From the NCBI GenBank assembly GCA_007120575.1, contig SKNJ01000319.1, forward strand, positions 1 through 13,440: 13,440 nucleotides of DNA, written 5' to 3'. Positions 27-12,621 of this stretch are shown one piece after another. The position numbers were made by a program, and so were the translations under genes. The stretch's first letter is position 1; every line of letters begins with the position of its first letter. This stretch comes from Thioalkalivibrio sp. GTDB lineage: Bacteria > Pseudomonadota > Gammaproteobacteria > Ectothiorhodospirales > Ectothiorhodospiraceae. The notes under the pieces were generated by a model that was given only the letters and a program-made list of their open reading frames with translations, made no database searches and was not told where the DNA came from.

Positions 27-464
27 ATGTCCAAGTACACCACCGTGTCCAGCCTCAAGGCTGCCATGAAAGCCCAGCTGGAGAAGGCCAACGGCAAGAA
101 GGAACCGGAAGCTGCCCCCAAGAAGGAGGCCCCCAAGAAGGAGGCCCCCAAGAAGGAAGCCCCCAAGAAGGAGGCCCCCAAGAAGGAAGCCCCCAAGAAG
201 GAGGCCCCCAAGAAGGAAGCCCCTGCCCCCAAAGCGAAGGCCGACAAGAAGCCTGCTGCCAACGGATATTCCCGTATTGACAGTGTCTGTGACGCAATCA
301 AGACTGACAAGGTCAAGGACTTCAAAGACCTGGTGGCCATTTCCAACAACATCTACATTGAGAAAAAAGGACCCAGTGCGGACAACGTGGCTGAAGCCCG
401 CACCATGGCCCGGTACGTGGTCAAGACCCTCCGGCACTTTGGTGTGAGCGTTCCGGAGGAGTGA
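27..464 (+). CDS. Lysine/alanine/proline-repeat protein, possibly the 3' part of a longer ORF
   Basis: I do not recognise a named family. From the first ATG it is 145 residues: a short helical N-terminus, seven perfect Ala-Pro-Lys-Lys-Glu units at residues 30-64, a basic linker, then a compact C-terminal part (about residues 80-145) that looks folded and helical. Low-complexity Lys/Pro/Ala tails of this sort occur on histone H1-like and other nucleic-acid-binding proteins, so DNA binding or a flexible linker role is plausible but only inferred. The frame is open from position 3 to the ATG, and the ATG has no convincing ribosome binding site, so the gene may begin upstream of the window. The stop is followed after 4 bases by the first radical SAM gene, and its last codons supply that gene's GGAGGAG ribosome binding site. 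This suggests cotranscription. Confidence 0.7.
   Translation: MSKYTTVSSLKAAMKAQLEKANGKKEPEAAPKKEAPKKEAPKKEAPKKEAPKKEAPKKEAPKKEAPAPKAKADKKPAANGYSRIDSVCDAIKTDKVKDFKDLVAISNNIYIEKKGPSADNVAEARTMARYVVKTLRHFGVSVPEE
114..218 (+). repeat. Seven tandem 15-bp units encoding Ala-Pro-Lys-Lys-Glu
   Basis: Seven in-frame units of GCC CCC AAG AAG GAR run without any mismatch except the last base of the Glu codon. That base reads G, G, A, G, A, G, A (positions 128, 143, 158, 173, 188, 203, 218), so the later units form 30-bp pairs. This indicates expansion in two-unit steps. The tract keeps the reading frame whatever the copy number. Confidence 0.95.
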
Positions 465-468
465 GCCC

Positions 469-1521
469 ATGAAACTTCTCAAAAACAGCGTAACAATGAG
501 GGGGGATAGTCTGTATTGTCCCCTCTCATTGTCTATTGATGCCTATGGAAACTGTCTGACGGACTGTCACCATTGCTACATGAGGCACCTGAACCATACT
601 TGGGGACAGGACCTGAAACCGGCTGACCTTGAAGCCCTAGACAAGAAGCTCACTGCCGGTCCCAAAAACAAGAACCCCAAAACCCCCCTGGCCTGGGCCC
701 TGTCTCAGAAAAAAACAATCCGGCTAGGTAACAAAACAGACCCCTTCCAGGATGCGGAAAGGGAACACCGGATGGCCCGGAAAATAATTCAACTGCTGAT
801 AAAGCACCGGTGGACGTTTGTGATACAGACCCGGTTCACCCACATGTTCCTTGAGTATGAAGTCCACCTGCTCCGAGCACACCGGCGCTCCCTCCTGACC
901 CTCATGCCGGTCATCTCCCCCGGGCTGGAGAAGGACTGGGAACTGTTTGAACGCAAACGGACCACTATGCCGGAAGACCGGATGAAGCACCTGGCTCACT
1001 TCCGGCAACAGGGGGTCCCCGGAGGAGTGAATGGTGAGCCCTTCATTCCCGGATTCCATACCCCGCAGGACTTCGCCACCACCATCAAACTGCTCAAAGC
1101 ATACGGCATTAACCGGTACAACACGTACAATTTTCATTTCAATGCCTATGTAGCCAAACGGCTGGTGAATCTCCCGGGAGTAGACATTGAGAAAATCTGG
1201 TACCATAACCAAGATGAGCAGTGGAAAAAGATATTGGCTGAACTGCTAGAGATAGCAAAGGCCCATGATGTGATACTAGGGTGCCCGGACTTTGTAAACA
1301 CCGGCTGGGACTGGAAGGAACGGGCCAACACTTGTTGCGGGGTAGATGTCCCCAACCCCTGTACCTTCAACACTCATTTTTTCAAAAAACTCAGACAGGA
1401 AGGCCTGACCCTACAAGAGGTGCTGGATGAATCTTGGGACGGAACCGGGGACCGTGAAACAGGGTGTTCCATAGTGCTGGGCAGTTGTAAGGATTTTTAC
1501 AATTTGAATGACATACAATGA
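469..1521 (+). CDS. Radical SAM enzyme 1, SPL/Rv2578c-like, probable DNA-base modification
   Basis: This 350-residue protein carries the radical SAM cluster motif Cys29-x3-Cys33-x2-Cys36 followed by Tyr, which binds the 4Fe-4S cluster that cleaves S-adenosylmethionine to a 5'-deoxyadenosyl radical. The stretch LGNKTDPFQDAERE downstream resembles the G-x-x-TDPyQ-x-E element of spore-photoproduct-lyase-like and Rv2578c-like radical SAM proteins. The C-terminal third has further cysteines (272, 289, 290, 298, 333, 340) that could hold an auxiliary cluster. The start has a good GGAGGAG site at 455-461, 7 bases upstream. The stop overlaps the PLP-enzyme start as ATGA. With a PLP enzyme, a second radical SAM protein, a GNAT and a glycosyltransferase alongside, a role in tailoring a modified DNA base is the likeliest reading. 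Photolesion repair is the main alternative. The substrate is unknown. Confidence 0.85.
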   Translation: MKLLKNSVTMRGDSLYCPLSLSIDAYGNCLTDCHHCYMRHLNHTWGQDLKPADLEALDKKLTAGPKNKNPKTPLAWALSQKKTIRLGNKTDPFQDAEREHRMARKIIQLLIKHRWTFVIQTRFTHMFLEYEVHLLRAHRRSLLTLMPVISPGLEKDWELFERKRTTMPEDRMKHLAHFRQQGVPGGVNGEPFIPGFHTPQDFATTIKLLKAYGINRYNTYNFHFNAYVAKRLVNLPGVDIEKIWYHNQDEQWKKILAELLEIAKAHDVILGCPDFVNTGWDWKERANTCCGVDVPNPCTFNTHFFKKLRQEGLTLQEVLDESWDGTGDRETGCSIVLGSCKDFYNLNDIQ

Positions 1522-2378
1522 CCCACACTCTCATAGATAACACCCCCGTTGAAGAGTACCATGAGCAGGGAATCCCTGTGCTGGTGAAACGGGAAGACCG
1601 GTGTGCCCCGAAAGGAGCACCGCCATTCAGCAAGATACGGGGGATAATGCGACACTTGGGGGGACTCCGGGACCGGGGAGTGACCACCGTTGGTTACACG
1701 GAAACCTCCATCAGTATGGCTGGCTGGGGGGTGGCCTGGGCCTGTAAGGAACTTGGGATGAAAGCCGTGATATTTGACCCCCAGTACAAGGACCCCCTGA
1801 AGCTGCTCCAACACCACCGGCGCCAGTGGAGGAAGTACAATGCCGGCATAGAGCCTATTCAAGCCGGCATGGCCCGGGTGAACTGGAACATCAGCAAAAG
1901 GCTCCTGGCCCAAAGATACGGACCTGATGCGGTCCTGCTTCCTCTGGGACTCCCTTTTGAGGAAAGCATTGAGGCCACTGCTCAGGAAATGGTCCGGACC
2001 CTAGCCCACCTCAAGTTCACGGACCCCCTGAGTGTGGTGGTCAACGTGGGCAGTGGTACCATAGCAGCCGGGGTCTGGAAGGGCTTGGAGCAATCCCCCC
2101 TCCCCGGGGCCGTGGTCTATGGCATCATGGGACGTACCGGGGACGCCCGGAGGAAGCTGACCCTGATAGCCCGGAAGGCAAAGGTGTTCCCTGACGGGAT
2201 ATTCTCCCCCAAAACCCAATTCACAATAGTAGACCCCGGATGGGAGTACACGGACAAAAGCACTGCCCCCTGTCCATTCCCCTGCCATCCTTATTATGAC
2301 CGGAAGGCCTGGCAATGGCTGACTGAAAACATAAGCAACGTGCCGCACCCAATCCTGTTCTGGAACATTGGTCGGTGA
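1518..2378 (+). CDS. PLP-dependent fold-type II enzyme (ACC deaminase / D-cysteine desulfhydrase-like)
   Basis: The 286-residue protein has the tryptophan-synthase-beta (fold-type II) layout. LVKREDR at residues 22-28 matches the K-x-ED element. The likely Schiff-base lysine is Lys39, in FSKIRG where relatives have GNKxR. A substrate-binding turn follows at residues 61-71 (TETSISMAGWG), and a phosphate-binding loop Gly178-Ser179-Gly180-Thr181. The C-terminus HPYYDRKAWQWL...LFWNIG is typical of the ACC deaminase/D-cysteine desulfhydrase branch. It is about 40-50 residues shorter than cellular members, and the usual SNH-type turn has changed, so the substrate has probably changed too. It sits between two radical SAM genes and starts inside the stop of the first (ATGA), with no Shine-Dalgarno motif. 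Known phage thymidine hypermodification pathways also use PLP enzymes, mostly other types. Beta-elimination, replacement or deamination of an amino-acid-derived group on a base is an inference. Confidence 0.85.
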   Translation: MTHTLIDNTPVEEYHEQGIPVLVKREDRCAPKGAPPFSKIRGIMRHLGGLRDRGVTTVGYTETSISMAGWGVAWACKELGMKAVIFDPQYKDPLKLLQHHRRQWRKYNAGIEPIQAGMARVNWNISKRLLAQRYGPDAVLLPLGLPFEESIEATAQEMVRTLAHLKFTDPLSVVVNVGSGTIAAGVWKGLEQSPLPGAVVYGIMGRTGDARRKLTLIARKAKVFPDGIFSPKTQFTIVDPGWEYTDKSTAPCPFPCHPYYDRKAWQWLTENISNVPHPILFWNIGR

Positions 2379-2405
2379 CTCCATAACCTCCAAACAACGT
2401 GATGT

Positions 2406-3842
2406 ATGACGAAAAGTGAAAAAATGACCTACTGGGATGTGCGGGAAGCCGTCATCAAGATTGTCCCCCGTCACACCAAACTCCTAGTACAGGAACGCAA
2501 GGTGGATGCCGTCCGGGAAAAAGGACGCAAACGCAACTACCAGCAATTCAACCTGAAGGAGAATCAATGGAAACGGCAGGAACGGCTCCTCAATGCTCAA
2601 CAGCTGAATTCCTTCCTTGAGATAGCCCTGCGTGCCCCGGCCTGCCCCATGCCCTTCAACATGGATGTTTGGGACGGGCTGATATGTCCTTTCAAGTGCA
2701 CGTACTGTTACGCAAATGCGTTCCGGGCTAGTTTGTATACAGCCTTCTTTGATAACTCCAAGACAATGGGATTCCGACATTGTAACCCGGAGTATTACAA
2801 ACAGGAGATGGCCAAGATGGACAAGCTGCGGGCACTCCCGTTTGAACGGCAGAAGGAACTCTCAGGAATCAACAAGGCCTATGCCCTAGAGATACCCCTG
2901 CGCATGGGAATCCGTTTTGAGGATTTTTTGAAAAATGAGGCCAAGGACGGAATCAGCCTGGCCATGCTCCAGCACCTATCAGACATTGAATACCCTGTGA
3001 TGCTAAACACCAAGTCAGACCTGGTGGGGACAGAATCCTATCTGAAGGCCCTAGCTGAGAACAAGGCTGGTACAGCTATCCACCTGACTCTGATAACCAG
3101 TGATGAGGAAGTTCTCCAGAAAATAGAACCCGGCGCACCCAGCTACAAGAAGCGCATGGAGGCTATGCGGAACCTGGTACAGGCCGGGGTCCGGGTGGTA
3201 GCCCGGATTGAACCCTATTTGTTCTTGCTGACGGACCGGAGGGAGGATGTGGAACGCTACCTTGATGACCTCTGGGATACCGGGGTGCGGCATATCACCT
3301 TTGACACCTACTCCTACACCGCATACAATCCCGGTATCCGACAGGGCTTCATCAATGCCGGATATGATTTTGACCGGCTGTTCCTAGCTGGTTGCGATAG
3401 CCAGCCCCTGGGGAGCCTCCTGCTGGGCAAGTTCATGGAACTGTTCCGTGACCGGGGATTCTCCTGCAGCACCTTTGACATGGGGAACGTCCCGGACAAT
3501 GACCAGTCCATTTGCTGTGAGGTGGGGGACATGTTCGGTGACCGGTGGAACTATGGCTGTACAGTCATGGCTGCCCGGTATATTCAGGAACGTTCCCCGG
3601 CTGCCGTAACTTGGCAGGAGTTCTCGGACTGGGTGGACGTCAAGGGAGGCTTCCTCAGCAATGAATTGCGACAGGAGGTACATGCCCTATGGAACCTCCA
3701 GGGCAATGTAGCTTACAGCCATCGCTGGGCCAAAGGACTGACCCCCCGGGGGTATGATGAAAATGGACTGATTTGGACGTATGACCCTGTCCAGGAAGAC
3801 TACCGTGAACAACTACTCAAAACCCTAATTTCAGACGAATGA
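2406..3842 (+). CDS. Radical SAM enzyme 2 (large), probable DNA-base modification
   Basis: This 478-residue protein has the canonical Cys94-x3-Cys98-x2-Cys101-Tyr radical SAM motif (CPFKCTYCY), placed unusually late because of a charged, helical N-terminal extension of about 85 residues. The core that follows contains VMLNTKSDLV and an IEPYLFLLTDRRED segment, arranged as in spore-photoproduct-lyase-like radical SAM folds. The C-terminal part has cysteines at 354, 370, 371 and 385 that may bind a second cluster. It follows the PLP gene by 27 bases. Its stop overlaps the next start as ATGA. No Shine-Dalgarno motif is visible, and a second in-frame ATG at codon 7 (2424) is possible. Its placement argues for a later radical step in the same base-modification pathway. 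I cannot name the reaction. Confidence 0.85.
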   Translation: MTKSEKMTYWDVREAVIKIVPRHTKLLVQERKVDAVREKGRKRNYQQFNLKENQWKRQERLLNAQQLNSFLEIALRAPACPMPFNMDVWDGLICPFKCTYCYANAFRASLYTAFFDNSKTMGFRHCNPEYYKQEMAKMDKLRALPFERQKELSGINKAYALEIPLRMGIRFEDFLKNEAKDGISLAMLQHLSDIEYPVMLNTKSDLVGTESYLKALAENKAGTAIHLTLITSDEEVLQKIEPGAPSYKKRMEAMRNLVQAGVRVVARIEPYLFLLTDRREDVERYLDDLWDTGVRHITFDTYSYTAYNPGIRQGFINAGYDFDRLFLAGCDSQPLGSLLLGKFMELFRDRGFSCSTFDMGNVPDNDQSICCEVGDMFGDRWNYGCTVMAARYIQERSPAAVTWQEFSDWVDVKGGFLSNELRQEVHALWNLQGNVAYSHRWAKGLTPRGYDENGLIWTYDPVQEDYREQLLKTLISDE

Positions 3843-4645
3843 AAAAATCCAAAACAACAAACGTCCGCAAGCAGGTTGAGGCTCTGTTCTCAACCGCAGT
3901 AGCCCTAGACCAGAGTGGGGGCCTGCGCAATACCGTATTTGTGGTTGACCGGTCCGTGTACGTGATGAACTATGACCACACCGTTCTGATTCGCTTCCGG
4001 CTCAAGGAGGCTGACCCCCCGTTCCCGCACCCCGTTTCCTTCCGGGCTAATGACTATGACAGCAACCAGTTTTTTGAGGAGGAAGGCCAAGTGGTATTTG
4101 TGTCTGAAAAAAGCGGTTACAAACGTCAGAAAAGCTGTAAAGTGCCGGACCATACCCCTGAGGATATATCCAGAGTGTATGCGGACTATGTGGGGTTGCT
4201 CAAGGATGCGGAAACCCACACTGTCCATCTCCCCAGAGGAGTCCTTGAACTACTGGATGACAACCTCAGCCATTTGGAGATAACAGGGAAGGCTGGGGAG
4301 CCTATCACCCTGACGCAACGCAACATCTACTCCGGGGCCATCATCAAGGTCCAACAGGACCCGGGTGCCCTAGATGCCAAGCCCCTCCCCTGGGACATTG
4401 AGCCCCTAGCTATGCGCACCCCGGACTTCCAGGCACTGTTTGCGTTCCAGTCTGACCTGTACTTCCATTTCTACCCGAAGGGCACGGAAGCCTCTGTGGT
4501 AATGGTGCGCAATCAGGCCAAGTCCCTGACCCCAATGCGAGCCTTTGTATCATGCTGTATCTACGATGAAATCATCAACATAAAACAATCAGATTATGGG
4601 CGGAAAGAGCAGAAAATCCGGCGGCGTAAGCAAGCGCCTCATTGA
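3839..4645 (+). CDS. Unknown 268-residue protein in the modification cluster, possibly clamp-like
   Basis: I do not recognise the family with confidence. The protein is soluble, with alternating beta-rich stretches (about residues 32-55, 140-175, 200-235) and a basic C-terminal tail. There is no signal peptide, membrane segment or obvious catalytic motif. Segments such as the one around LDDNLSHLEITGKAGEPITL, and the strand-rich final third, have the rhythm of two- or three-domain DNA sliding clamps, and a DnaN-like clamp lies 2 kb downstream. This is a weak fold impression, not a homology call. The start overlaps the radical SAM 2 stop (ATGA), so it is translationally coupled to the modification genes. 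If it is clamp-like, it could tether the modifying enzymes to DNA. Otherwise it may be a structural partner of them. Confidence 0.6.
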   Translation: MKKSKTTNVRKQVEALFSTAVALDQSGGLRNTVFVVDRSVYVMNYDHTVLIRFRLKEADPPFPHPVSFRANDYDSNQFFEEEGQVVFVSEKSGYKRQKSCKVPDHTPEDISRVYADYVGLLKDAETHTVHLPRGVLELLDDNLSHLEITGKAGEPITLTQRNIYSGAIIKVQQDPGALDAKPLPWDIEPLAMRTPDFQALFAFQSDLYFHFYPKGTEASVVMVRNQAKSLTPMRAFVSCCIYDEIINIKQSDYGRKEQKIRRRKQAPH

Positions 4646-4775
4646 AACACTCAAACAACAGGCCAATTCCCCTGGCGGCAAGAAGGGTTGTGGGCCCAAA
4701 AAATCCAACATAGACTATGGAAAAGGACTATTCGACCCTGACGAACCTGTGGAAACAAAGCGGACTGACCGCTAA
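4596..4775 (+). CDS. Small basic glycine/lysine-rich protein in overlapping frames
   Basis: This 59-residue frame starts at an ATG 50 bases before the stop of the preceding gene and ends 59 bases inside the annotated GNAT gene. It fills the otherwise empty 71-base gap. The protein starts MGGKSRKSGGVSKRLIETL, has a Gly-Lys-Lys-Gly-Cys-Gly turn in the middle and ends acidic then basic (FDPDEPVETKR). Its composition is protein-like rather than that of a random frame. The overlaps are longer than the usual 4-20 bases here. If the GNAT protein instead starts at the in-frame ATG at 4783, the downstream overlap disappears and the gap is 7 bases. Function unknown. Confidence 0.55.
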   Translation: MGGKSRKSGGVSKRLIETLKQQANSPGGKKGCGPKKSNIDYGKGLFDPDEPVETKRTDR

Positions 4776-5520
4776 TTTCTACATGAGCCCGGCATACCTA
4801 GCCCGGGCCAAGGCAGTGGTGGTGGACCGGGACTGGTGGATGTGGGCTGAAGCTGACGGATGGTGTATAGCCCCTCCGGTCCCTTATGACCTCCGGGCTG
4901 ACCCCAATCCCCCGGTAGACTCCGTGTGGAGTGATTGCCGGGTGAATCCCGCATGGCTGTCTGAGAAGGACGGCTGGACACGGGAGTTCCTTGATTGGGA
5001 GTACCTGTACGACCCACAGGCCTTCCTAGACATGAAGGGCAAGAAGTGGGCCACCTTCCGGAAGAACTGCCGGAAATGGCCACGACGCAATCCTGAATAC
5101 ATCTACTGTACCTTGCCCCAGGTAGACTACCAAACGTTCGACCTGCTGGCAGAATGGATGTTGAAACGACAAAATACGGTTAATGACCCGGACATTATTG
5201 TGAACTACCTAGCAGAACCGGCTCCCCCCGGGTCCGGGGTGTCCCGGTGGGGTTTGTATGAGAAGGGTCGACTGGTAGGGGTGAACATCTGGGACTACAG
5301 CCGCAACCACGTCAACTACCGGTTTTGTCTACACCGGGACGGGGAACCGTTTGTGGATGAATTTATGAGGGTATTGTTCTATGCCCAGCAGGCAAGGGAG
5401 TTCCCCAGCTTTGTGGTTAATGACGGGGGGACCCTGGGCCAGGCCGGTCTGGAAGCCTTCAAGGACAAGCTCAACCCTATTACGAAAAGAATGGTGTTCA
5501 CATGGAAAAGAAAAAGATGA
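4717..5520 (+). CDS. GNAT-fold DUF2156-like acyl/aminoacyltransferase
   Basis: The 267-residue protein resembles the C-terminal catalytic domain of phosphatidylglycerol lysyltransferases (DUF2156, double-GNAT/FemX-like). Two signatures are visible. One is a Gly-Lys-Lys-x6-Lys-Asn element at about residues 106-121 (MKGKKWATFRKNCRKW), matching the LKGKKxxxKRN motif. The other is a C-terminal NDGGTLGQAGLEAFKDKLNP at residues 235-254, matching the N-x-E-x-DLGIEGLRxxKxxYxP motif. There are no membrane helices, so it is not a lipid-modifying form. Such enzymes transfer aminoacyl or acyl groups from tRNA or CoA, and GNAT-like proteins (Mom of phage Mu is the classic case) act on phage DNA bases. Acylation of an amino group on a hypermodified base is the inferred role. 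The start could alternatively be the ATG at 4783. It ends in an ATGA overlap with the next gene. Confidence 0.75.
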   Translation: MEKDYSTLTNLWKQSGLTANFYMSPAYLARAKAVVVDRDWWMWAEADGWCIAPPVPYDLRADPNPPVDSVWSDCRVNPAWLSEKDGWTREFLDWEYLYDPQAFLDMKGKKWATFRKNCRKWPRRNPEYIYCTLPQVDYQTFDLLAEWMLKRQNTVNDPDIIVNYLAEPAPPGSGVSRWGLYEKGRLVGVNIWDYSRNHVNYRFCLHRDGEPFVDEFMRVLFYAQQAREFPSFVVNDGGTLGQAGLEAFKDKLNPITKRMVFTWKRKR

Positions 5521-5807
5521 CCCGGGGCAGGTTCCCGGAAACCTTCCCCAAGAAGCCGGAACCTGATTCACTCTTTGAGGATTTGGATGAGTTCCTGTGG
5601 TGGAAAAAGGCATGGGAAGGGATGCCGGAATTTGTCTCAGAAGACCAAAGCCCTCACCGGAGTATTGTCATTCATTTCCGTAATGAGGAAGATGTCAAAA
5701 CCTTTGCCCAGCTGCTAGGCATAGACATCAAGCCCCGGAACCGATACTTGTATTACCCCCCTCAGAAACGGGCCAACCTGAAGAGATACCGATATGAAAC
5801 CGAATAA
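5517..5807 (+). CDS. Small partner protein of the modification cluster (96 residues)
   Basis: I cannot assign a named family. I chose the ATG at 5517 because it overlaps the preceding TGA as ATGA, the junction used repeatedly in this operon. An in-frame ATG at 5502 would add five residues. The N-terminal half is acidic and tryptophan-rich (FEDLDEFLWWKKAWEGMPEF). The second half, RSIVIHFRNEEDVKTFAQLLG then RNRYLYYPP, reads as a beta-alpha-beta unit, as in ferredoxin-like or RRM-like small domains. My impression is that similar short proteins accompany radical SAM, PLP and glycosyltransferase genes in other phage modification clusters, but I cannot verify that here. It lies between the GNAT and glycosyltransferase genes, overlapping the latter by 14 bases. 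It may be a DNA-binding or scaffold subunit. Confidence 0.7.
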   Translation: MTRGRFPETFPKKPEPDSLFEDLDEFLWWKKAWEGMPEFVSEDQSPHRSIVIHFRNEEDVKTFAQLLGIDIKPRNRYLYYPPQKRANLKRYRYETE

Positions 5808-6711
5808 GCCTCCGTTGCCTCTGTTCCCGTTGTTCATAGTATCCAAAGGACGGTGGAAACAAAGGCACACCAGCCGTTTCCTTGAACTCCAGGGGACCCC
5901 CTACCGAATTGTGGTGGAAGACCAGGAATATTCAAAGTATGCCCAGTACATAGACAAGAAGAAAATCCTGGTGCTGGACAAGCAGTATCAGAAGGATTAT
6001 GACACCTATGATGATTTGGGATTCTCCAAAAGCGTAGGCCCCGGACCTGCCCGGAACTTTGTATGGGACGTGGCCATGTCTGAGGGGTATGACTGGCACT
6101 GGGTGATGGATGACAACATTGCCTACTTCTACCGGCTGAACCGCAACTTGAAAGTCCAGGTACACTCCCCGGTGTTTTGGAGGGTGATGGAGGAGTTCTG
6201 CCTGCGGTATGATAACATCGCCATGGCCGGTCCTAATTATGAGATGTTCATACCCCGGAGGGAGAAGGTGCCCCCCTTCATAACCAACACCCGCATTTAC
6301 TCCTGTAACCTGATTCGCAATGATGTCCCCTTCCGGTGGCGGGGCCGGTACAATGAGGACACGGATTTGTCCCTCCGGATGCTCAAGGCTGGCTGGTGCA
6401 CCGTCCAGTTCAATGCGCTCCTTCAAAAGAAGCTAACCACCCAGACCGTACAAGGGGGGAACACGCAGGAGTTCTATTCAAAGGAAGGGACCTTCCCGAA
6501 GTCTGAAATGTTAGAACGGATGCACCCGGACGTCGCCAGAGTATGCTGGAGATTCAACCGTTGGCACCATTATGTAGACTATACACCGTTCAAGTACAAC
6601 CGATTGCGTAAACGACAAAAACCTCACCCGGACATAACCATATCAAAGGGAGTCAATGAATATGGGATGGTCCTGAAAAAAACTGAAGCCCCTAACCAAC
6701 ACAAATCATGA
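5794..6711 (+). CDS. TET-associated-type glycosyltransferase (TAGT), DNA-base glycosylation
   Basis: The 305-residue protein has the layout of the TAGT family of phage glycosyltransferases (GT-A fold). It opens with an IVSKGRW strand-turn at residues 15-21 and then VVEDQEYSKY at 40-49. Next comes GPGPARNF at 82-89, and then WVMDDNI at 103-109, whose Asp106-Asp107-Asn108 is the likely metal/sugar-nucleotide site. RYNEDTDLSLRML follows, with Glu188-Asp189 and Asp191 probably catalytic or metal-binding, and then a C-terminal GGN motif. TAGT proteins add a sugar to hydroxymethylated bases in phage DNA, classically 5-hydroxymethylcytosine made by phage TET oxygenases. Here it ends the modification gene run, overlaps the small partner gene by 14 bases and shares an ATGA with the sliding clamp start. 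No TET gene is present in this window, so the acceptor base is unknown. Confidence 0.85.
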   Translation: MKPNKPPLPLFPLFIVSKGRWKQRHTSRFLELQGTPYRIVVEDQEYSKYAQYIDKKKILVLDKQYQKDYDTYDDLGFSKSVGPGPARNFVWDVAMSEGYDWHWVMDDNIAYFYRLNRNLKVQVHSPVFWRVMEEFCLRYDNIAMAGPNYEMFIPRREKVPPFITNTRIYSCNLIRNDVPFRWRGRYNEDTDLSLRMLKAGWCTVQFNALLQKKLTTQTVQGGNTQEFYSKEGTFPKSEMLERMHPDVARVCWRFNRWHHYVDYTPFKYNRLRKRQKPHPDITISKGVNEYGMVLKKTEAPNQHKS

Positions 6712-7715
6712 AAATCGACAGAACAGAACTCACCAAAGCCCTGGAAATAGTAAAGCCCGGGCTGGCCAACACAGAACTCATTGAACAGTCTACCTCCTTT
6801 GCGTTCCTGGAGGACCGGGTGGTGACCTACAATAATTCAATCAGCATCAGTCACCCGGTCAAGGGCCTCAAATTGACCGGGGCAATCCACTCCAAGGAGT
6901 TGTATGAGTTCCTGCGGCGCACCAAGAAGGATGAAGTGGAAATCAAAGCCACTGACCGGGAAGTACAGCTCAAGTGCGGGAACTCCCGGGCCGGTCTGAC
7001 CCTCCAGCAGGAGGTGGTCCTGCCCCTGGATGAAATTTCTGAGGAAAAGGATTGGGAAACCCTCCCGGAGGAAATTGTGGACGGCATCAGCTTTGTCAAG
7101 GACTCCTCCAGCCGGGATACCCAGCGCCCTATCCTCAACTGTATCCACCTGACGGAAACCATGGCAGAGGCCTCTGATGGGTTCCAGATAATTCGCCTGT
7201 ATGCGGAAGGCTTCCCGTTTGCGGACTGCCTGCTGCCGGCAGGGAATGCCCGGGAGGCCCTGCGCATCAATCCTTCCCTAGTAGCCCGCACAGATGGCTG
7301 GCTCCACTTCAAGAATGCGGACGGCACCCAGATAAGCTGCCGGACCCTTGAGGATGAATACCCCAACACTGACGGTCATTTCCAAGTGGACGGGGAGGGC
7401 ATAACCTTTCCCAAAACCATGAATGAGATATTGGACAGGGTCCGGGTCTTCACCGCAACCAGTACCAATGAATTTGAAGAGGTCATGGAGGTGGAATTGA
7501 AGGACAACCGCCTGACGGTGAAAGCCCGCAATGAGTATGGTTGGTTCAAGGAACCGGCCAAGATAAAGTATGCCGGGAAGCCGGTATCATTCTGGGTGGC
7601 CCCGGTACTGCTCAAAAACATCCTTTCCAAATCTGACCAGTGTACTCTGGGTGAAAGGAAAATCAAATTTGAAGGGGAGGGATGGGAGTATGTAGCAGTG
7701 CTCAAAGCCGTCTGA
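6708..7715 (+). CDS. dnaN: DNA polymerase sliding clamp (DnaN-like beta clamp)
   Basis: The 335-residue protein matches bacterial beta clamps in overall plan, slightly short of the usual 365-380. It has an N-terminal MKIDRTELTKALEIVKPGL, a middle-domain segment RPILNCIHLT...ASDGFQIIRLYAEG (compare the R-x-x-LNGVLLE...ATDGHRLA signature of DnaN), and a third domain with strand-rich ends. It would form a ring around duplex DNA and hold the family A polymerase encoded downstream. The start sits within the glycosyltransferase stop (ATGA) with no Shine-Dalgarno motif, so clamp translation is probably coupled to translation of the modification operon. After the stop comes a 25-base C/A-rich leader to the next gene. 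Confidence 0.88.
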   Translation: MKIDRTELTKALEIVKPGLANTELIEQSTSFAFLEDRVVTYNNSISISHPVKGLKLTGAIHSKELYEFLRRTKKDEVEIKATDREVQLKCGNSRAGLTLQQEVVLPLDEISEEKDWETLPEEIVDGISFVKDSSSRDTQRPILNCIHLTETMAEASDGFQIIRLYAEGFPFADCLLPAGNAREALRINPSLVARTDGWLHFKNADGTQISCRTLEDEYPNTDGHFQVDGEGITFPKTMNEILDRVRVFTATSTNEFEEVMEVELKDNRLTVKARNEYGWFKEPAKIKYAGKPVSFWVAPVLLKNILSKSDQCTLGERKIKFEGEGWEYVAVLKAV

Positions 7716-7740: not shown

Positions 7741-8151
7741 ATGTCTGGACAAACCTATCAAATGAAGGCTAGTGAGGCTGAGAAGTATGTGAAGCAACGC
7801 TGGCCCGGATGCCGGTTCATACCCCGGCGCCCGGACAATGCGGAGGCCATAGTCATGTGGCCTGATGGTCGCATAATAGACCGCAACACCTCAATGGGCA
7901 AGATGATTGAGGAGATGAAGAAGCCCGGTTGGAAGCCCAGCTGGAAAGCCTCCACGGAACCTCTGATGGAGGAAACCCCCCGGCTGGACCTACAGGAGGA
8001 GATGGCCACCCGTGCCCGGTGCTTGCTAGGGTGTCTGAATGACCTCCGGGAGTTCACGCATTGTAAGCCCCAAGTCAGCTTCGACCGGCGTGGCCGGGCC
8101 TTGTCTGTCCGGGTGGGTGATTTTTATTACCTGCGAAACCCCGATAAGTGA
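7741..8151 (+). CDS. Unknown 136-residue protein between clamp and polymerase genes
   Basis: I do not recognise it. The N-terminal half (MKASEAEKYVKQRWPGCRFIPRR... and MWPDGRIIDRN) looks like a small alpha/beta unit. The middle is proline- and tryptophan-rich. The C-terminal half begins with a helix (EEMATRARCLLGCLNDLREF) and ends in short strands with VRVGDFYYLRN. There are no membrane segments or metal motifs. The start ATG follows a 25-base leader of C and A runs with no Shine-Dalgarno motif. The TGA stop overlaps the ATG of the next gene as TGATG. Its position suggests a replication accessory role, but nothing in the protein shows one. Confidence 0.75.
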   Translation: MSGQTYQMKASEAEKYVKQRWPGCRFIPRRPDNAEAIVMWPDGRIIDRNTSMGKMIEEMKKPGWKPSWKASTEPLMEETPRLDLQEEMATRARCLLGCLNDLREFTHCKPQVSFDRRGRALSVRVGDFYYLRNPDK

Positions 8152-9392
8152 TGGAAGGTTTTTTCACCCGTAAACAAACAGAATCAATCAATGCCGGGGC
8201 CGGGGGCCGGGTGTATACCTGTGCCGGCTGCGGCCTGTACCGGCATTGTGAATCTCCCCGGATGAAACCCTATGGGGAATTCAAAAAAGGAATAGCCTGC
8301 GTTGGGGAAGCCCCCGGACAAGTGGAGGATGAACGGGGGCGCCCCTGGCAGGGCAAAGCCGGACGGTTGCTACAACGGACCCTGCGCAAATACGGGGTGG
8401 ACCTCTTCCGGGATTGCATCACCTTGAATGCCGTCAACTGCCGGCCCCCGGACAACCGGACCCCCACACCAGAGGAAATCAATCACTGCCGGTCCGTCCG
8501 CACCTGGAAGGCCCTCCAACAATACCAACCCCGGGTGATTATCCTATTGGGGTCAGCTGCGGTTGAAAGTGGGATTGGGCACCGCTGGTCCGGCAGCCGG
8601 TCTGATAACCTAGCCAAGTGGCGTGGGTGGACCATCCCGGACCAGGACCTCAAGGCATGGGTGTGTCCTACATACCACCCTAGCTACCTGGAGCGCTCTG
8701 GGCAGCGCCGGGAACTTATGACCCTGTGGGAAGGGGACCTTGACCGTGCTCTAGAGAAGGTGAAGGAACCCTGGCCCCGGTCCGCAGAACCGGAGATTGA
8801 AATTGTGGATGACCTCTCATTCCTAGACTCCGTTGCGGGAAGTTCCGGCCTGATGTCTTTTGACTACGAAACCACAGCCATCAAGCCCCATGCCCCGGGG
8901 CATCGTATCCGGGCTGCGGCCATAGCTTCCCGGCCTGACCATTGTTGGGCCTTCCTTATGCCCCGGACCAAAGCCGGAAGAGCGCCCCTGCGCAGGTGGC
9001 TGAAGAACCGGGAGGTGGCCAAGATGGCCCACAACATTAAGTTTGAACATGCCTGGTCCTACAACATCCTCAAGGTTCAAGTCCGGGGGTGGGAATGGGA
9101 CTCCATGCTGGCCGCACACCTACTGGACAACCGTCCAGGCATATCCGGGCTCAAGTTCCAGACCTATGTGAACTTCGGGGTGGTGGACTATTCTAGTGAC
9201 GTGGACCAGTACCTGCGGTCGGCCCCAAACGCCCCGGAGGGAGGCAATGCACCCAACCGAATCGACAAACTATTGAAACAACCTAGTGGTCCGGACAAGG
9301 TTCTCCGGTACGTGGGGCTGGATGCCGTGTATGAGTACCGGCTAGCCCTGCGGCAGATGGAACGCCTGGGCTGGGATTTTTTACCCTTTTGA
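8151..9392 (+). CDS. Uracil-DNA glycosylase fused to a DNA polymerase I-type 3'-5' exonuclease
   Basis: The 413-residue protein has two domains. Residues 20-200 match family 4 uracil-DNA glycosylases. The four 4Fe-4S cysteines are Cys24-x2-Cys27-x69-Cys97-x15-Cys113. The catalytic loop GEAPGQVEDERGRPWQGKAG begins at residue 52, and HPSYL at 176-180 supplies the second active-site loop. Residues 230-413 are the proofreading domain of family A polymerases: Exo I Asp238-Tyr-Glu240-Thr-Thr, Exo II NIKFEHAW with Glu299 where polymerase I has Asp, and Exo III Tyr387-x3-Asp391. The polymerase domain itself is in the next gene, 3 bases on. The domain order equals a family A polymerase whose 5' nuclease has been replaced by a glycosylase. 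I chose the ATG at 8151 (TGATG overlap) over an upstream GTG at 8148. It should remove uracil and mismatched ends during replication. Confidence 0.88.
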   Translation: MEGFFTRKQTESINAGAGGRVYTCAGCGLYRHCESPRMKPYGEFKKGIACVGEAPGQVEDERGRPWQGKAGRLLQRTLRKYGVDLFRDCITLNAVNCRPPDNRTPTPEEINHCRSVRTWKALQQYQPRVIILLGSAAVESGIGHRWSGSRSDNLAKWRGWTIPDQDLKAWVCPTYHPSYLERSGQRRELMTLWEGDLDRALEKVKEPWPRSAEPEIEIVDDLSFLDSVAGSSGLMSFDYETTAIKPHAPGHRIRAAAIASRPDHCWAFLMPRTKAGRAPLRRWLKNREVAKMAHNIKFEHAWSYNILKVQVRGWEWDSMLAAHLLDNRPGISGLKFQTYVNFGVVDYSSDVDQYLRSAPNAPEGGNAPNRIDKLLKQPSGPDKVLRYVGLDAVYEYRLALRQMERLGWDFLPF

Positions 9393-9395
9393 CCT

Positions 9396-10805
9396 ATGTA
9401 TCAACCACACCCTCAATCCAAAGCTGCTTACAAGTTACTCCATGACGGAGTGTTGGCCCTGGGCCGGGCAGAACAACGGGGAATCCGTCTGGACCTGAAA
9501 TATTGTCACGCAGAAACGGAGCGCCTGACCCGGGAGATAAAAGCACTGGAACAGGCCTTCCACCATACCAAATTCTATCGCCATTGGTTCAAGACTCTAG
9601 GAGGCAGGACCCCCAACATCAATTCCAATGCCCAGCTGGGGAACTTCCTATACAAACGCAAGAAGCTGAAGCCCATCAAAACCACCGTCACCGGGCAGGG
9701 GTCTACTGATGAGGAAGCCCTCCTACAATTGAACATCCCAGAACTCAATGACCTGCTTCGCCTCCGGGGCCTCAAGAAAATCCGGGACACCTACCTCAAG
9801 GGCTTCCTCAAGGAGCAGGTCGGGGGACGGGTCCACCCCAATTTCAACCTCCACATAGCCCGGACATATCGCTCCTCCTCTGACCGTCCCAACTTCCAGA
9901 ACATACCCAAGAGGGATGAGGAGGCAAAACGGATTTGTCGGCAGGCTCTGTTCCCATCAAAGGGCTACCAGCTGATGGCCGTGGACTACTCCGGGATTGA
10001 GGTATGCGTGTCAGCCTGCTACCACCAGGACCCCACCATGATGAAGTACATCAAGGACCCCAAATCAGATATGCACCGGGACATGGCCCAGCAGGTCTAT
10101 GAATTGAAAACCTATGACCCCTCAATCACCGGCCATAAGGTTCTCCGGTCTGCGGCCAAGAATGGTTTTGTGTTCCCTCAATTTTACGGCGATTACTACC
10201 GGAACTGCGCAATCAGTATGGCCTGTAACTGGGGCAAGCTGCCGGACGGACGGTGGAAGCCCGGGCAGGGAATCCCCCTGGGGGATGGCTCCCTGTCTGA
10301 CCACCTACTGGGCCAGGGGCATAAGTCCCTAGAGCAATTTGCGGACCATGTCCAGAGGATTGAGAAGGACTTCTGGGGGCGACGTTTCCGGGTCTATGCC
10401 CGGTGGAAGGAGAAGACATGGGAGCAGTACCAACGGACCGGATACGTGGAACTGCTGACGGGATTCCGGTGCGGGGGCCTTATGGCTTACAATGACGTCA
10501 CCAACTACCCAATACAGGGGGCTGCCTTCCATTGTTTGCTGAAGGCCTTTGTGCTAGCAGACCGGGAACTGCGTGCCCGGAAATTCAAGACCCGGCTGAT
10601 TGGTCAGATACATGATGAAATGATACTTGACGTATGGCCTCCGGAACTAGATGAGGTGGGGGAATTGCTACTGGACGTGATGACCCAGCAAGTCCCGGAG
10701 GAATGGCCCTGGATAGTTGTACCCCTCACCGTTGACATGGAAGTATCTCCCGTGGACGGCTCATGGCAGGAAATGGGAAGCTATGTGCGAGATGCGCGAA
10801 AATAG
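9396..10805 (+). CDS. polA: Family A DNA polymerase, polymerase domain only
   Basis: The 469-residue protein carries the complete palm, fingers and thumb of a phage polymerase I-type enzyme. The template-binding segment RTYRSSSDRPNFQNIP lies at the thumb/palm junction. Motif A is MAVDYSGIE with metal ligand Asp197 and Glu202. Motif B runs from Arg251 and Lys255 through NGFVFPQFYG, about one residue longer between the lysine and the Tyr-Gly than in E. coli or T7 polymerase. Motif C is IGQIHDEMILDV with His406-Asp407-Glu408. There is no exonuclease domain here; it is encoded by the gene immediately upstream, so the enzyme is a natural two-subunit split. It begins 3 bases after the exonuclease stop with no Shine-Dalgarno motif. 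It is probably the replicative polymerase, and the one that must copy and tolerate modified template bases. Confidence 0.93.
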   Translation: MYQPHPQSKAAYKLLHDGVLALGRAEQRGIRLDLKYCHAETERLTREIKALEQAFHHTKFYRHWFKTLGGRTPNINSNAQLGNFLYKRKKLKPIKTTVTGQGSTDEEALLQLNIPELNDLLRLRGLKKIRDTYLKGFLKEQVGGRVHPNFNLHIARTYRSSSDRPNFQNIPKRDEEAKRICRQALFPSKGYQLMAVDYSGIEVCVSACYHQDPTMMKYIKDPKSDMHRDMAQQVYELKTYDPSITGHKVLRSAAKNGFVFPQFYGDYYRNCAISMACNWGKLPDGRWKPGQGIPLGDGSLSDHLLGQGHKSLEQFADHVQRIEKDFWGRRFRVYARWKEKTWEQYQRTGYVELLTGFRCGGLMAYNDVTNYPIQGAAFHCLLKAFVLADRELRARKFKTRLIGQIHDEMILDVWPPELDEVGELLLDVMTQQVPEEWPWIVVPLTVDMEVSPVDGSWQEMGSYVRDARK

Positions 10806-10883
10806 AAAAGTTTCAAATTGTATAATAAGACAGGCCGGAAGGACCCCCGGCCCCCAAACCCCAAACCATTACAAGCCCATCCA
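10806..10883 (+). promoter_or_regulatory. Leader with TATAAT box, GC-rich hairpin and C/A-rich tail before the clamp loader
   Basis: This 78-base gap is the longest unannotated stretch in the window, and its first part is AT-rich, unlike its surroundings. It contains an exact TATAAT at 10821-10826 inside TTGTATAATAAG. A perfect 6-bp inverted repeat follows, GGCCGG at 10833-10838 and CCGGCC at 10847-10852 with an 8-base loop, and then C/A runs up to the ATG at 10884. No good -35 box is visible. The hairpin lacks a following T tract, so it is not a standard intrinsic terminator. A promoter for the downstream genes, or an RNA element in the leader, is a reasonable guess. Confidence 0.35.
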
Positions 10884-11798
10884 ATGAACCTGTACTTGAA
10901 ATACCGGCCCAATGAGCTGGAACAACTACTAGGCAACCAGAGCGTCACTGCGGCCCTAGCTGATATGACGGCTGACCCGGCATCCTGTCCCCATTCATTC
11001 CTCCTGACCGGTCCCAAGGGCTGCGGCAAGACCACCGTGGCCCGTATCCTTGCGGGACGGCTGGGGGTATCTGACCAGGACATTCAGGAACTAGACACAG
11101 CTGACTTCCGGGGCATAGACAGTGTGCGGGAGATACGCCGGCAGAGCCAGTACCAACCCCTGAAGGGGGACCGGCGCATGTGGATACTAGATGAGTGTCA
11201 CCGGCTGACTAATGATGCCCAGAGTGCCCTGCTCAAGATACTGGAGGACACCCCCAGTCACGTCTACTTTGTCCTGTGTACCACAGACCCCCACAAACTC
11301 CTCCCAACGGTCCGGGACCGGTGCACCACTTTTGAGATGCGGCCCCTGACGGATGTGGCCATGAAAAAACTACTCCTGCGGGTGACCAAATCAGAAGGCC
11401 AGACCCTCACAAAGACCGTCATGCGTCAAATTATTCAGGATAGTCTGGGACACCCCCGGGCTGCCCTACAGATACTGGACCAGGTGTTGCGGGTCCCGGA
11501 AGACAAGCGGCTGCGGACGGCCCGGCAATCTGCGGAGGAGCAGAATGAGTCCATAGAACTTTGCCGGGCACTCCTCAAGAAGGCCCCCTGGAAGGAGGTT
11601 GCCCGGCTGTTGCGGGGACTGAAGGACCAGGACCCGGAATCAATACGCCGGCATGTCCTGGGCTATGCGCAGGCCGTCCTTCTCAACAAGAATGACTTCC
11701 AGTCGGCCCTCATCCTGGAGGAGTTCATTGAACCCTTCTACAATTCCGGGTTTCCGGGATTGGTGTATGCCTGTTACTCCGTCACCCAAAATCAATAG
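10884..11798 (+). CDS. Clamp loader small subunit (DnaX / T4 gp44-like AAA+ ATPase)
   Basis: The 304-residue protein is a AAA+ clamp loader. It begins MNLYLKYRPNELEQLLGNQSV, matching the start of DnaX and RFC small subunits (KYRPxxF..IxGQ), which is why I chose the ATG at 10884 over an in-frame ATG at 10818 that would read through the leader. Walker A is GPKGCGKT at residues 43-50. Walker B is WILDECH with Asp103-Glu104. The DRC arginine-finger motif lies in VRDRCTTF, with sensor 2 in GHPRAAL. It is shorter than DnaX and lacks the zinc-binding cysteine cluster. It would load the clamp encoded at 6708-7715 onto primed DNA using ATP. No separate large subunit is seen in the window. Confidence 0.92.
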   Translation: MNLYLKYRPNELEQLLGNQSVTAALADMTADPASCPHSFLLTGPKGCGKTTVARILAGRLGVSDQDIQELDTADFRGIDSVREIRRQSQYQPLKGDRRMWILDECHRLTNDAQSALLKILEDTPSHVYFVLCTTDPHKLLPTVRDRCTTFEMRPLTDVAMKKLLLRVTKSEGQTLTKTVMRQIIQDSLGHPRAALQILDQVLRVPEDKRLRTARQSAEEQNESIELCRALLKKAPWKEVARLLRGLKDQDPESIRRHVLGYAQAVLLNKNDFQSALILEEFIEPFYNSGFPGLVYACYSVTQNQ

Positions 11799-11800
11799 CC

Positions 11801-11944
11801 ATGACCCATGAAGAAATCAAGGTTGTATTTCAGACCATCTTGAAATATGAAAACCTTCCAACTATCCTAGACCAGCTGGGCCGTCCGGCTACCTTGGAGG
11901 AACGTCAGCTGATACGGGAACTCATTGAAATCAGAACCCGATAA
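11801..11944 (+). CDS. Small 47-residue helical protein
   Basis: An ATG two bases after the clamp loader stop opens a 47-codon frame that ends in TAA nine bases before the next start. It exactly fills a gap that would otherwise be 155 bases in this densely packed genome. The product (MTHEEIKVVFQTILKYENLP... then LEERQLIRELIEIR) is predicted to be two charged helices with hydrophobic residues at helical spacing. It resembles small phage proteins of unknown function. No Shine-Dalgarno motif precedes it, as for its neighbours. It could be a small regulator or subunit of the adjacent replication or recombination proteins; function unknown. Confidence 0.6.
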   Translation: MTHEEIKVVFQTILKYENLPTILDQLGRPATLEERQLIRELIEIRTR

Positions 11945-11953
11945 CCCAACCAA

Positions 11954-12436
11954 ATGAACTACGAACAAGACACCACCATAGACCAGGATGCCCTGGACGT
12001 TGAATGGCTGGAACAGCCCCGGCTGATGATGCGTTATGCCCGGCTAGCTGCGGAAGCCCGGAAGCATATGGAGTGGGCCAAAGAGAACCTGGACGTGGCC
12101 AGGGCCTCCCTTGACCAATCCATACGTACTGACCCAGAGAAGTTTGGACTGGACAAGGTGACTGAATCTGCTATTGCTAGTGCCATCCTCATTCATAAAG
12201 AGTTCCGGGAGGCCCAGGACAAGTTCCGGGAGGCCCAATATGAATTCAATATGGCTCAGGCAGCCGTCCGTGCCCTTGATGGGAAACGGGACGCACTAGA
12301 GAACCTGGTGCGGCTCCACGGTCAGCAATACTTTGCCGGGCCAAAGGTCCCCCGGGACCTGTCCAAGGAATGGGAGCAGAAGCAACGACAGAAGGAGTCC
12401 AACCAAAAAGTCAAAATAGCCAGACGGAAGACCTGA
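11954..12436 (+). CDS. Coiled-coil protein, probable UvsY-like recombination mediator
   Basis: The 160-residue protein is almost entirely helical and charged, with heptad-like spacing from about residue 20 to 125. It ends in a conserved-looking ENLVRLHGQQYFAGPKVPRDL segment (about 115-138) and a basic tail. It resembles phage proteins I associate with UvsY-type recombination mediators, which load a recombinase onto ssDNA coated with single-strand-binding protein. It sits one gene before a gp32-like protein, which fits. The assignment is tentative because coiled coils give weak homology signals. It starts after the leader AACCCAACCAA with no Shine-Dalgarno motif, and its TGA overlaps the ATG of the membrane protein (TGATG). 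A 16-base duplication inside it encodes two FREAQ heptads. Confidence 0.65.
   Translation: MNYEQDTTIDQDALDVEWLEQPRLMMRYARLAAEARKHMEWAKENLDVARASLDQSIRTDPEKFGLDKVTESAIASAILIHKEFREAQDKFREAQYEFNMAQAAVRALDGKRDALENLVRLHGQQYFAGPKVPRDLSKEWEQKQRQKESNQKVKIARRKT
12201..12237 (+). repeat. 16-bp direct repeat, 21-base period, in the coiled-coil gene
   Basis: The 16-mer beginning AGTTCCGGGAGG occurs at 12201-12216 and again at 12222-12237. The 21-base period equals seven codons, and the two copies encode successive FREAQ segments, so it is a duplicated coiled-coil heptad rather than a mobile or regulatory repeat. Confidence 0.8.
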
Positions 12437-12621
12437 TGGAAATACTGTTAATGATACTGGTGGCCCTAGTCATCCTGGGCCTGTTGATGTCGCCGTTCTT
12501 GGCCTTCATTTTCGGCTACCTCCTAATGTCCGGGATGATTCTGGCCCTGCGCAAGAATGTAGAACCCCCAAACAAGAACGATTCACAAAACCAATACGAA
12601 AATGGCGAAAAAACGAAATAA
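12436..12621 (+). CDS. Small integral membrane protein (61 residues)
   Basis: The first 37 residues after Met are almost wholly hydrophobic (MEILLMILVALVILGLLMS, a break at Pro19, then FLAFIFGYLLMSGMILAL), followed by a charged, Asn/Gln/Glu-rich tail. This is one long or two short membrane helices with the tail probably in the cytoplasm. I chose the ATG at 12436, which overlaps the preceding TGA (TGATG), over an in-frame ATG at 12370 that would place a polar stretch in front of the hydrophobic segment and overlap the previous gene by 67 bases. Its last 20 bases overlap the start of the ssDNA-binding protein. Function is unknown. Its site between two recombination/replication genes suggests anchoring or a membrane role. 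Confidence 0.65.
   Translation: MEILLMILVALVILGLLMSPFLAFIFGYLLMSGMILALRKNVEPPNKNDSQNQYENGEKTK

Follow-up and report, generated by a model that had tools for sequence, protein, structure and literature searches.

A conserved gene module at the head of a phage-type replication block, probably for DNA base hypermodification with a front end different from that of M6-type phages

The window analysed here, the whole 13,440-nucleotide stretch assigned to Thioalkalivibrio sp., is one contig (C59) of a bin of 2.1 Mb, 344 contigs and 66.6% completeness. According to its list of mechanically called open reading frames (ORFs), all genes at 469-6711 share a single orientation. Behind a Lys/Glu/Pro-rich protein follow a radical S-adenosylmethionine (SAM) protein, RSAM1; a pyridoxal phosphate (PLP) enzyme; a second radical SAM protein, RSAM2; a protein here called UNK; a micro-ORF; a GNAT protein; a small protein; and a TAGT glycosyltransferase (Table 1). 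RSAM1, RSAM2, UNK, the micro-protein and GNAT form a core that is found in fixed order beside replication genes in a set of 50 related contigs. The original prediction had described a co-oriented run with ATGA-type overlaps. The orientation stands, as do 4-base ATGA overlaps at three junctions (1518, 3839 and 6708), but the PLP to RSAM2 junction is a 27-base gap and the remaining junctions overlap by 14-59 bases. Its assignment of two radical SAM proteins around a PLP enzyme agrees with the family matches, whereas its gene inventory was incomplete, the micro-protein having been overlooked.

Table 1. Features of the window in the order of their positions
Feature	Position	Strand	Length (amino acids)	Role	Evidence
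Lys/Glu/Pro-rich repeat protein	27-464				
RSAM1, radical SAM protein	469..1521	+	350	core	CxxxCxxC; NCBIfam rSAM_PA0069, E 3.4e-15; present in 24/25 UNK-seeded contigs
PLP enzyme, fold-type II (PALP)	1518..2378	+	286	accessory tailoring enzyme	PF00291, E 3.1e-13
RSAM2, radical SAM protein	2406..3842	+	478	core	Radical_SAM PF04055, E 3.4e-10
UNK, second sliding-clamp-like protein	3839..4645	+	268	core	clamp fold
Micro-protein, beginning MGGKSRKSGGVSKRLI	4596..4775	+	59	core	tblastn and N-terminal motif; codon variety
GNAT, candidate tandem-GNAT DUF2156/LPG-synthase-C/Fem-like aminoacyltransferase	4717..5520	+	267	core	
Small protein	5502..5807	+	101	TAGT companion	adjoins TAGT in the window and 3 relatives
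TAGT glycosyltransferase	5794..6711	+	305	accessory	PF20691, E 1.3e-42
Replicative sliding clamp	6708..7715	+		opens the downstream replication block	PHROG 947 DNA polymerase processivity factor, E 9.2e-31

Separate IMG/VR searches seeded with RSAM2, GNAT and UNK returned 32, 28 and 33 contigs, the union of which comprises 50 contigs of uncultured phages. Co-occurrence was counted only on contigs with at least 6 kb on the relevant side, that is, on 19-25 of the 33 UNK contigs, 13-23 of the 28 GNAT contigs and 15-22 of the 32 RSAM2 contigs. With UNK as the seed, RSAM2, GNAT and the replicative clamp are each present in 25/25 contigs, RSAM1 in all but one, PLP in 12/25 and TAGT in 1/19. The GNAT seed is accompanied by RSAM2 (18/18), the clamp (23/23), UNK (12/13), RSAM1 (15/18), PLP (6/18) and TAGT (1/13), and the RSAM2 seed by GNAT and the clamp (22/22 each), UNK (15/15), RSAM1 (19/22), PLP (7/22) and TAGT (0/15). 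These contigs were not dereplicated, and identical UNK, GNAT or RSAM2 proteins occur in several groups (L001/L002, L003/L009, L005/L006, L007/L008/L010/L011/L038, L013/L014, L055/L072, L082/L084 and L087/L090). The UNK gene of L055 was detected by the seed search and is not among the ORFs picked for the counts. Since the same order recurs across divergent contigs, the arrangement goes beyond chance. PLP and TAGT are accessories, because they are present in only part of the seeded contigs, unlike RSAM2, GNAT and the clamp. The set put forward in the original prediction is thus to be redrawn around the core, with the PLP enzyme, TAGT and its partner as accessories. The UNK and PLP protein clusters of the window are also represented on a contig of 38.8 kb. 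In 50,697 phage records, tblastn found no match to RSAM1 at E 1e-3, to UNK or GNAT at E 0.1 or to the micro-protein at E 10, and a single one, at 24% coverage, to RSAM2. Among the papers listed by searches of the open literature, none describes this gene set, and a prior mention may exist.

The accessory PLP enzyme links the module to known phage pathways. It matches 68 phage records over its full length, 53 of which are Pseudomonas phages; among the 25 of these 68 matches that were listed, identity is 39-40% over 99-100% of the length, mostly to Yuavirus-like Pseudomonas phages. An alignment of 18 sequences, among them the Lydia and Pam3 proteins, has its K39 conserved in every one. A control search of 149 other genomes from the same phylum as the window yielded no match at 1e-5, and a PDB sequence search gave none at E 0.01. 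The genes termed M6-type here come from Lydia, Churro and related phages; the DNA of phage M6 contains 5-(2-aminoethyl)deoxyuridine (PMC6449724). Both Lydia and Churro belong to Yuavirus and carry the PLP homologue within an operon in the order amino acid:DNA transferase, PLP, radical SAM and kinase; for Lydia, the Pfam names of transferase and kinase are ADDT and HMUDK. The Pam3 protein, 33% identical to that of the window, adjoins aGPT-Pplase and thymidylate-synthase genes. The original prediction had set the locus apart from known pathways as mostly using fold-type I PLP enzymes; this contrast fails for the nearest known pathway, which has a PLP enzyme of the same family.

Four contigs (L001, L002, L017 and L025, with three distinct proteins) harbour a flavin adenine dinucleotide (FAD) enzyme followed by an aldo-keto-reductase-cluster gene, the latter checked against Pfam in L001. 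The position of this pair is either between the two core radical SAM genes or immediately upstream of RSAM1. All four FAD enzymes match PaMx11 gp47 at E 8e-29 or better, and that of L001 matches the PDB "Flavin-dependent lyase" entries 8z2o and 8z79 at E 2.3e-31 and 1.6e-30. Because L025 has both genes, FAD and PLP are not strict alternatives. Judged by homology, tailoring enzymes of the PLP or flavin families are common to this module and the M6/PaMx11-type pathways. In the 2022 work of Lee and colleagues, the PLP enzyme is reported to be a decarboxylase, the radical SAM enzyme an isomerase and the flavin enzyme a lyase.

Because the PLP and flavin-lyase families are shared with known hypermodification pathways and the core stands at the head of the replication block, the module is read as one of DNA hypermodification. 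On balance, it probably carries out a post-replicative hypermodification of phage DNA bases, with tailoring shared with M6-type phages and a front end different from theirs. A clamp-coupled process of this kind is the simplest account of the locus. The original proposal of DNA hypermodification is supported by the family of the PLP enzyme, which is that of the M6-type thymidine hypermodifiers, but the steps it set out are retained only in part.

Known amino-acid thymidine hypermodifications set out from 5-hydroxymethyldeoxyuridine (5-hmdU) and employ both a kinase and an amino acid:DNA transferase. Searches for this front end covered 26 of the 50 contigs as whole records, about 1.27 Mb when summed by hand and mostly fragments. 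ADDT (PF18724) and HMUDK_hel (PF18723) were each found in 0/26 records and in 2/2 known phages taken as the control, and the Lydia AADT and P-loop kinase proteins used as queries likewise gave 0/26 each. The thymidylate-synthase family Thymidylat_synt was found in a single record (1/26), L006, where the gene (14727-15497) lies between the clamp and the uracil-DNA glycosylase (UDG); L058 has a corresponding ORF. An amino acid:DNA transferase (aGPT-Pplase), an hmdU kinase and a thymidylate-synthase homologue are also lacking among 16 window proteins, a set outside which the micro-protein falls, so that the absence of aGPT-Pplase and kinase noted from the window extends to the related records. 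TET/JBP dioxygenase (PF12851) was found in 0/26 records by a search that had no working positive control. The different front end is proposed because ADDT and HMUDK_hel are missing despite working controls and a thymidylate-synthase homologue is almost always missing. This reading is limited by the fragmentary state of most records, owing to which the absence of front-end genes is not proven for any single phage.

The same results bear on whether the phages follow the ordinary M6-type route, with 5-hmdU made and activated by genes elsewhere or by diverged enzymes that escaped recognition, and with the operon serving only for tailoring. The PLP and FAD enzymes common to M6/PaMx11-type phages would fit such a route, as would the thymidylate-synthase homologue adjoining the clamp in L006. 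It is nevertheless unlikely in view of the empty transferase and kinase searches of the 26 records and the lone thymidylate-synthase homologue among them, and the regions of Lydia and PaMx11 lack the fixed-order core, in which a pair of radical SAM genes is joined by a Fem-type transferase.

Both radical SAM proteins of the core have conserved cysteines beyond the CxxxCxxC motif. RSAM1 has C29, C33 and C36 in this motif plus C17, C289 and C290, all invariant in 27 sequences, and RSAM2 has C94, C98 and C101 plus C80, C126, C370 and C371, invariant in 29. The three extra cysteines of RSAM1 and four of RSAM2 are compatible with auxiliary clusters. The two proteins are related to each other (hhalign 98%). 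RSAM1 has no Pfam match, and its score against NCBIfam PA0069 (55.9 bits, cutoff 360) is below the family threshold, as is that of RSAM2 against Rv2578c (52.3 bits, cutoff 430). The Lydia radical SAM protein is likewise near the PA0069/Rv2578c families and far under their cutoffs. The PDB sequence search gave none for RSAM2 and, for RSAM1, only a chance-level light-harvesting match at E 0.95. In six contigs (L009, L027, L030, L052, L055 and L072), RSAM1 is replaced by another radical SAM gene and a gene of the DUF362 cluster, with Pfam checks limited to L009 and L030. Two radical SAM genes per locus are therefore the rule.

Matches by blastp (4.6e-5) and hhalign (96.5%) pointed to a particular relationship between RSAM1 and the radical SAM enzyme of M6-type phages. 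A control weakened this suggestion: cellular proteins, the best being of the PA0069 family, match RSAM1 at up to 69.4 bits, compared with 20-22 bits for the Lydia and Pam3 enzymes. Since cellular proteins match better, thymidine chemistry cannot be argued specifically from the likeness to the Lydia and Pam3 enzymes, and RSAM1 and RSAM2 appear to share only the broad class with the M6-type enzyme. Direct functionalisation of a base has a precedent in the radical SAM enzyme Taw1/TYW1, which abstracts hydrogen from 1-methylguanosine (m1G) and, aided by a second cluster, attaches carbons of pyruvate (PMC7761594).

The nearness of RSAM1 and RSAM2 to the PA0069/Rv2578c families also raises the idea of a replication-coupled DNA repair set, in which SplB-type ("DNA repair photolyase") radical SAM proteins act with a clamp and UDG; a UDG-exonuclease and a weakly UvsY-like gene are indeed nearby. 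We consider this improbable. The PLP enzyme, the flavin lyase homologue, the aldo-keto reductase and the Fem-type transferase would be left unexplained, and the Pam3 protein annotated under that photolyase name is itself a neighbour of aGPT-Pplase1/2 and thymidylate-synthase genes.

Several relatives show peculiarities at RSAM2. Its start in most of them corresponds to the ATG near 2424. It is broken at the CxxxCxxC cysteines by insertions in L007 (8334-11170, two insertions), L025 (8543-11161), L026, L028, L029 and L032. These insertions end in VHN followed by C and are either contiguous or spread over two ORFs, and L029 has a separate ORF between the RSAM2 halves. By their motifs, the insertions look intein-like and the extra ORF of L029 endonuclease-like. 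The slot between PLP and RSAM2 is variable and holds a deoxycytidylate-deaminase-family gene (PF00383) in L005 (6931-7536). Between RSAM2 and UNK, L020 carries an ORF (11413-12588) that, by resemblance, we presume to be akin to an RtcB-type RNA ligase.

The protein at 3839-4645, a real gene that had been listed as unknown, has a sliding-clamp fold over residues 4-241. No Pfam family matches it at E 1, and its PDB sequence matches are at chance level only (E 0.21 or worse). The idea that UNK and the downstream clamp are recognisable sequence paralogues was dropped (hhalign 22%). Clamp-coupled modification has a precedent in the T4 alpha-glucosyltransferase (alpha-GT), which binds the gp45 clamp (PMC13216743).

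The micro-protein ORF overlaps the UNK and GNAT genes in the window. Of the first 11 loci, 10 show a tblastn match at this position, the eleventh being cut short before it, and its N-terminal motif finds it in 40/43 contigs. A comparison of 33 nucleotide versions, all distinct, shows no variation at residues 9 and 12 (33/33) and almost none at residue 15 (32/33), with as many as 6 synonymous codons in use for conserved residues. The invariance of residues 1-7 arises partly by construction, since most of them are required by the search motif, while residues 9 and 12 and the codon variety are independent of it. As residues are conserved despite varied synonymous codons, the sequences mark the micro-protein as a translated, selected gene. 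The DNA pattern of its first residues alone retrieves 8 IMG/VR contigs, 3 known members and 5 new ones, and all 8 have UNK and/or GNAT beside it; in L111, one of the new contigs, RSAM2 was not recognised in the roughly 1.4 kb available upstream of UNK. The C-terminus is often LFD or FF, an ending that may be likened to the motifs of clamp-binding peptides.

The conserved N-terminus and variable tail also resemble a leader and core design. The micro-protein could then be the substrate, a ribosomally made peptide (RiPP-like or a carrier peptide) modified by the two radical SAM enzymes and the aminoacyl-tRNA-class transferase encoded beside it. The probability of this is low, since no tail residue is consistently modifiable, Cys being missing from many versions, and since the clamp fold, the replication context and the tailoring enzymes of DNA hypermodification would find no explanation.

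GNAT has a tandem-GNAT fold of the MprF/FemX class, which is aminoacyl-tRNA-dependent. Its nearest folds are 2hqy, the function of which is unknown, and then aminoacyl-tRNA-dependent transferases; the PDB sequence search likewise gave 2hqy, at E 0.006 and 3.8e-4. The match to LPG_synthase_C (DUF2156, PF09924) has an E of 3.3e-4 and 20.2 bits, under the curated cutoff of 27.5, and among 74 listed homologues 8 have PF09924 as a precomputed assignment. The DUF2156/GNAT-like label of the original prediction thus suits the fold but misses the Pfam cutoff. Its acylation step keeps the transferase class, but the fold class is nearer to aminoacyl-tRNA-dependent enzymes than to plain acetyltransferases, which makes GNAT a candidate aminoacyl-tRNA-dependent transferase. 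UNK and GNAT were also considered as diverged amino acid:DNA transferases and rejected, as there was no significant profile match and the folds are those of a clamp and a tandem GNAT.

The identification of TAGT was correct, with 146.5 bits against a PF20691 cutoff of 27.5 and 49-53% identity to the TAGTs of 22 phage records; the PDB sequence search gave none at E 1. It is present in only 3/26 other related records searched, which led to its rejection as the core or first step and leaves sugar attachment as a common step unsupported. The small protein adjoins TAGT in the window and in all 3 TAGT-bearing contigs of the 50, and the two are an accessory pair outside the core. The TAGT of L052 (record G017, 16755-17351) contains one in-frame TAG.

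Glycosyltransferases of the GT-A type can act on glycans, and the fold class of GNAT acts on lipids, peptides and small molecules, both of which would suit a tRNA or surface polysaccharide as the target. This appears less probable than any of the other alternatives. Homologues of the PLP and FAD enzymes are members of DNA-hypermodification operons, the core is firmly tied to replication genes, and the T-even TAGT targets glucosylated DNA cytosine (PMC13216743).

If the module hypermodifies DNA, its steps may be envisaged as follows. RSAM1 and RSAM2, of an SplB/PA0069-like class, would introduce a substituent of amino-acid type into a pyrimidine, or rearrange one there, the most likely site being the 5-methyl side of thymine, without the front end of 5-hmdU, kinase and amino acid:DNA transferase. 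UNK, as a dedicated second sliding clamp, would couple the enzymes to newly copied DNA, with the micro-protein as a candidate adaptor. The PLP enzyme of the window would then decarboxylate or otherwise process the amino acid, while some relatives would employ the flavin-dependent lyase homologue and the aldo-keto reductase in or near the PLP slot. GNAT would cap the amine or hydroxyl so formed by transfer of an aminoacyl (or acyl) group, with aminoacyl-tRNA as the most likely donor, and TAGT would add a sugar in this phage and a few others. The full version, with radical SAM action on an unactivated thymine methyl in new DNA, a private clamp with a micro-protein adaptor, and Fem/MprF-type aminoacylation from charged tRNA, is tentative and rather doubtful as a whole.

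The block downstream of TAGT is a phage-type replication block. The replicative clamp is followed by gene 7741, the UDG-exonuclease, PolA and a clamp loader, and then by genes weakly resembling UvsY and gp32, with a short hydrophobic gene between these two. The window encodes UDG-exonuclease and PolA (8148-10808) as two genes, and L002 (7397-10057) has them fused in an ORF of 886 amino acids; PolA ORFs of 865-870 amino acids in L020 and L047 suggest the same fusion. At the other end, many relatives have, upstream of RSAM1, a gene with a stretch similar to the protein at 27-464, a match that low complexity may inflate.

If the proposed hypermodification is real, a second route for hanging amino acids on DNA would exist. 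Radical SAM action on duplex DNA bases without prior activation, charged tRNA as a donor for DNA modification and a phage clamp dedicated to modification become testable.

The module resembles the M6-type (Yuavirus) and PaMx11-type phages in its PLP family, in the flavin-lyase family of 4 relatives, in radical SAM proteins of the same broad class and in its location among replication genes. It differs from them in that no amino acid:DNA transferase or 5-hmdU kinase was found in the records searched and a thymidylate-synthase homologue in only one, and in having two radical SAM proteins, an extra clamp-like protein, the micro-protein and a Fem/MprF-type transferase. UNK shares the fold of the sliding clamps PCNA, DnaN and T4 gp45, but it is without a Pfam family, accompanies this operon in the contigs searched and has a second clamp gene downstream. 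Compared with MprF/L-PGS, FemX and Sbb17 (DUF2156, tandem GNAT), the phage GNAT is soluble, lies beside a DNA-replication block and stays below the PF09924 cutoff. The TAGT shares the family PF20691 with its T-even counterpart, but here it is an accessory, and the window has no hydroxymethylase of the thymidylate-synthase type.

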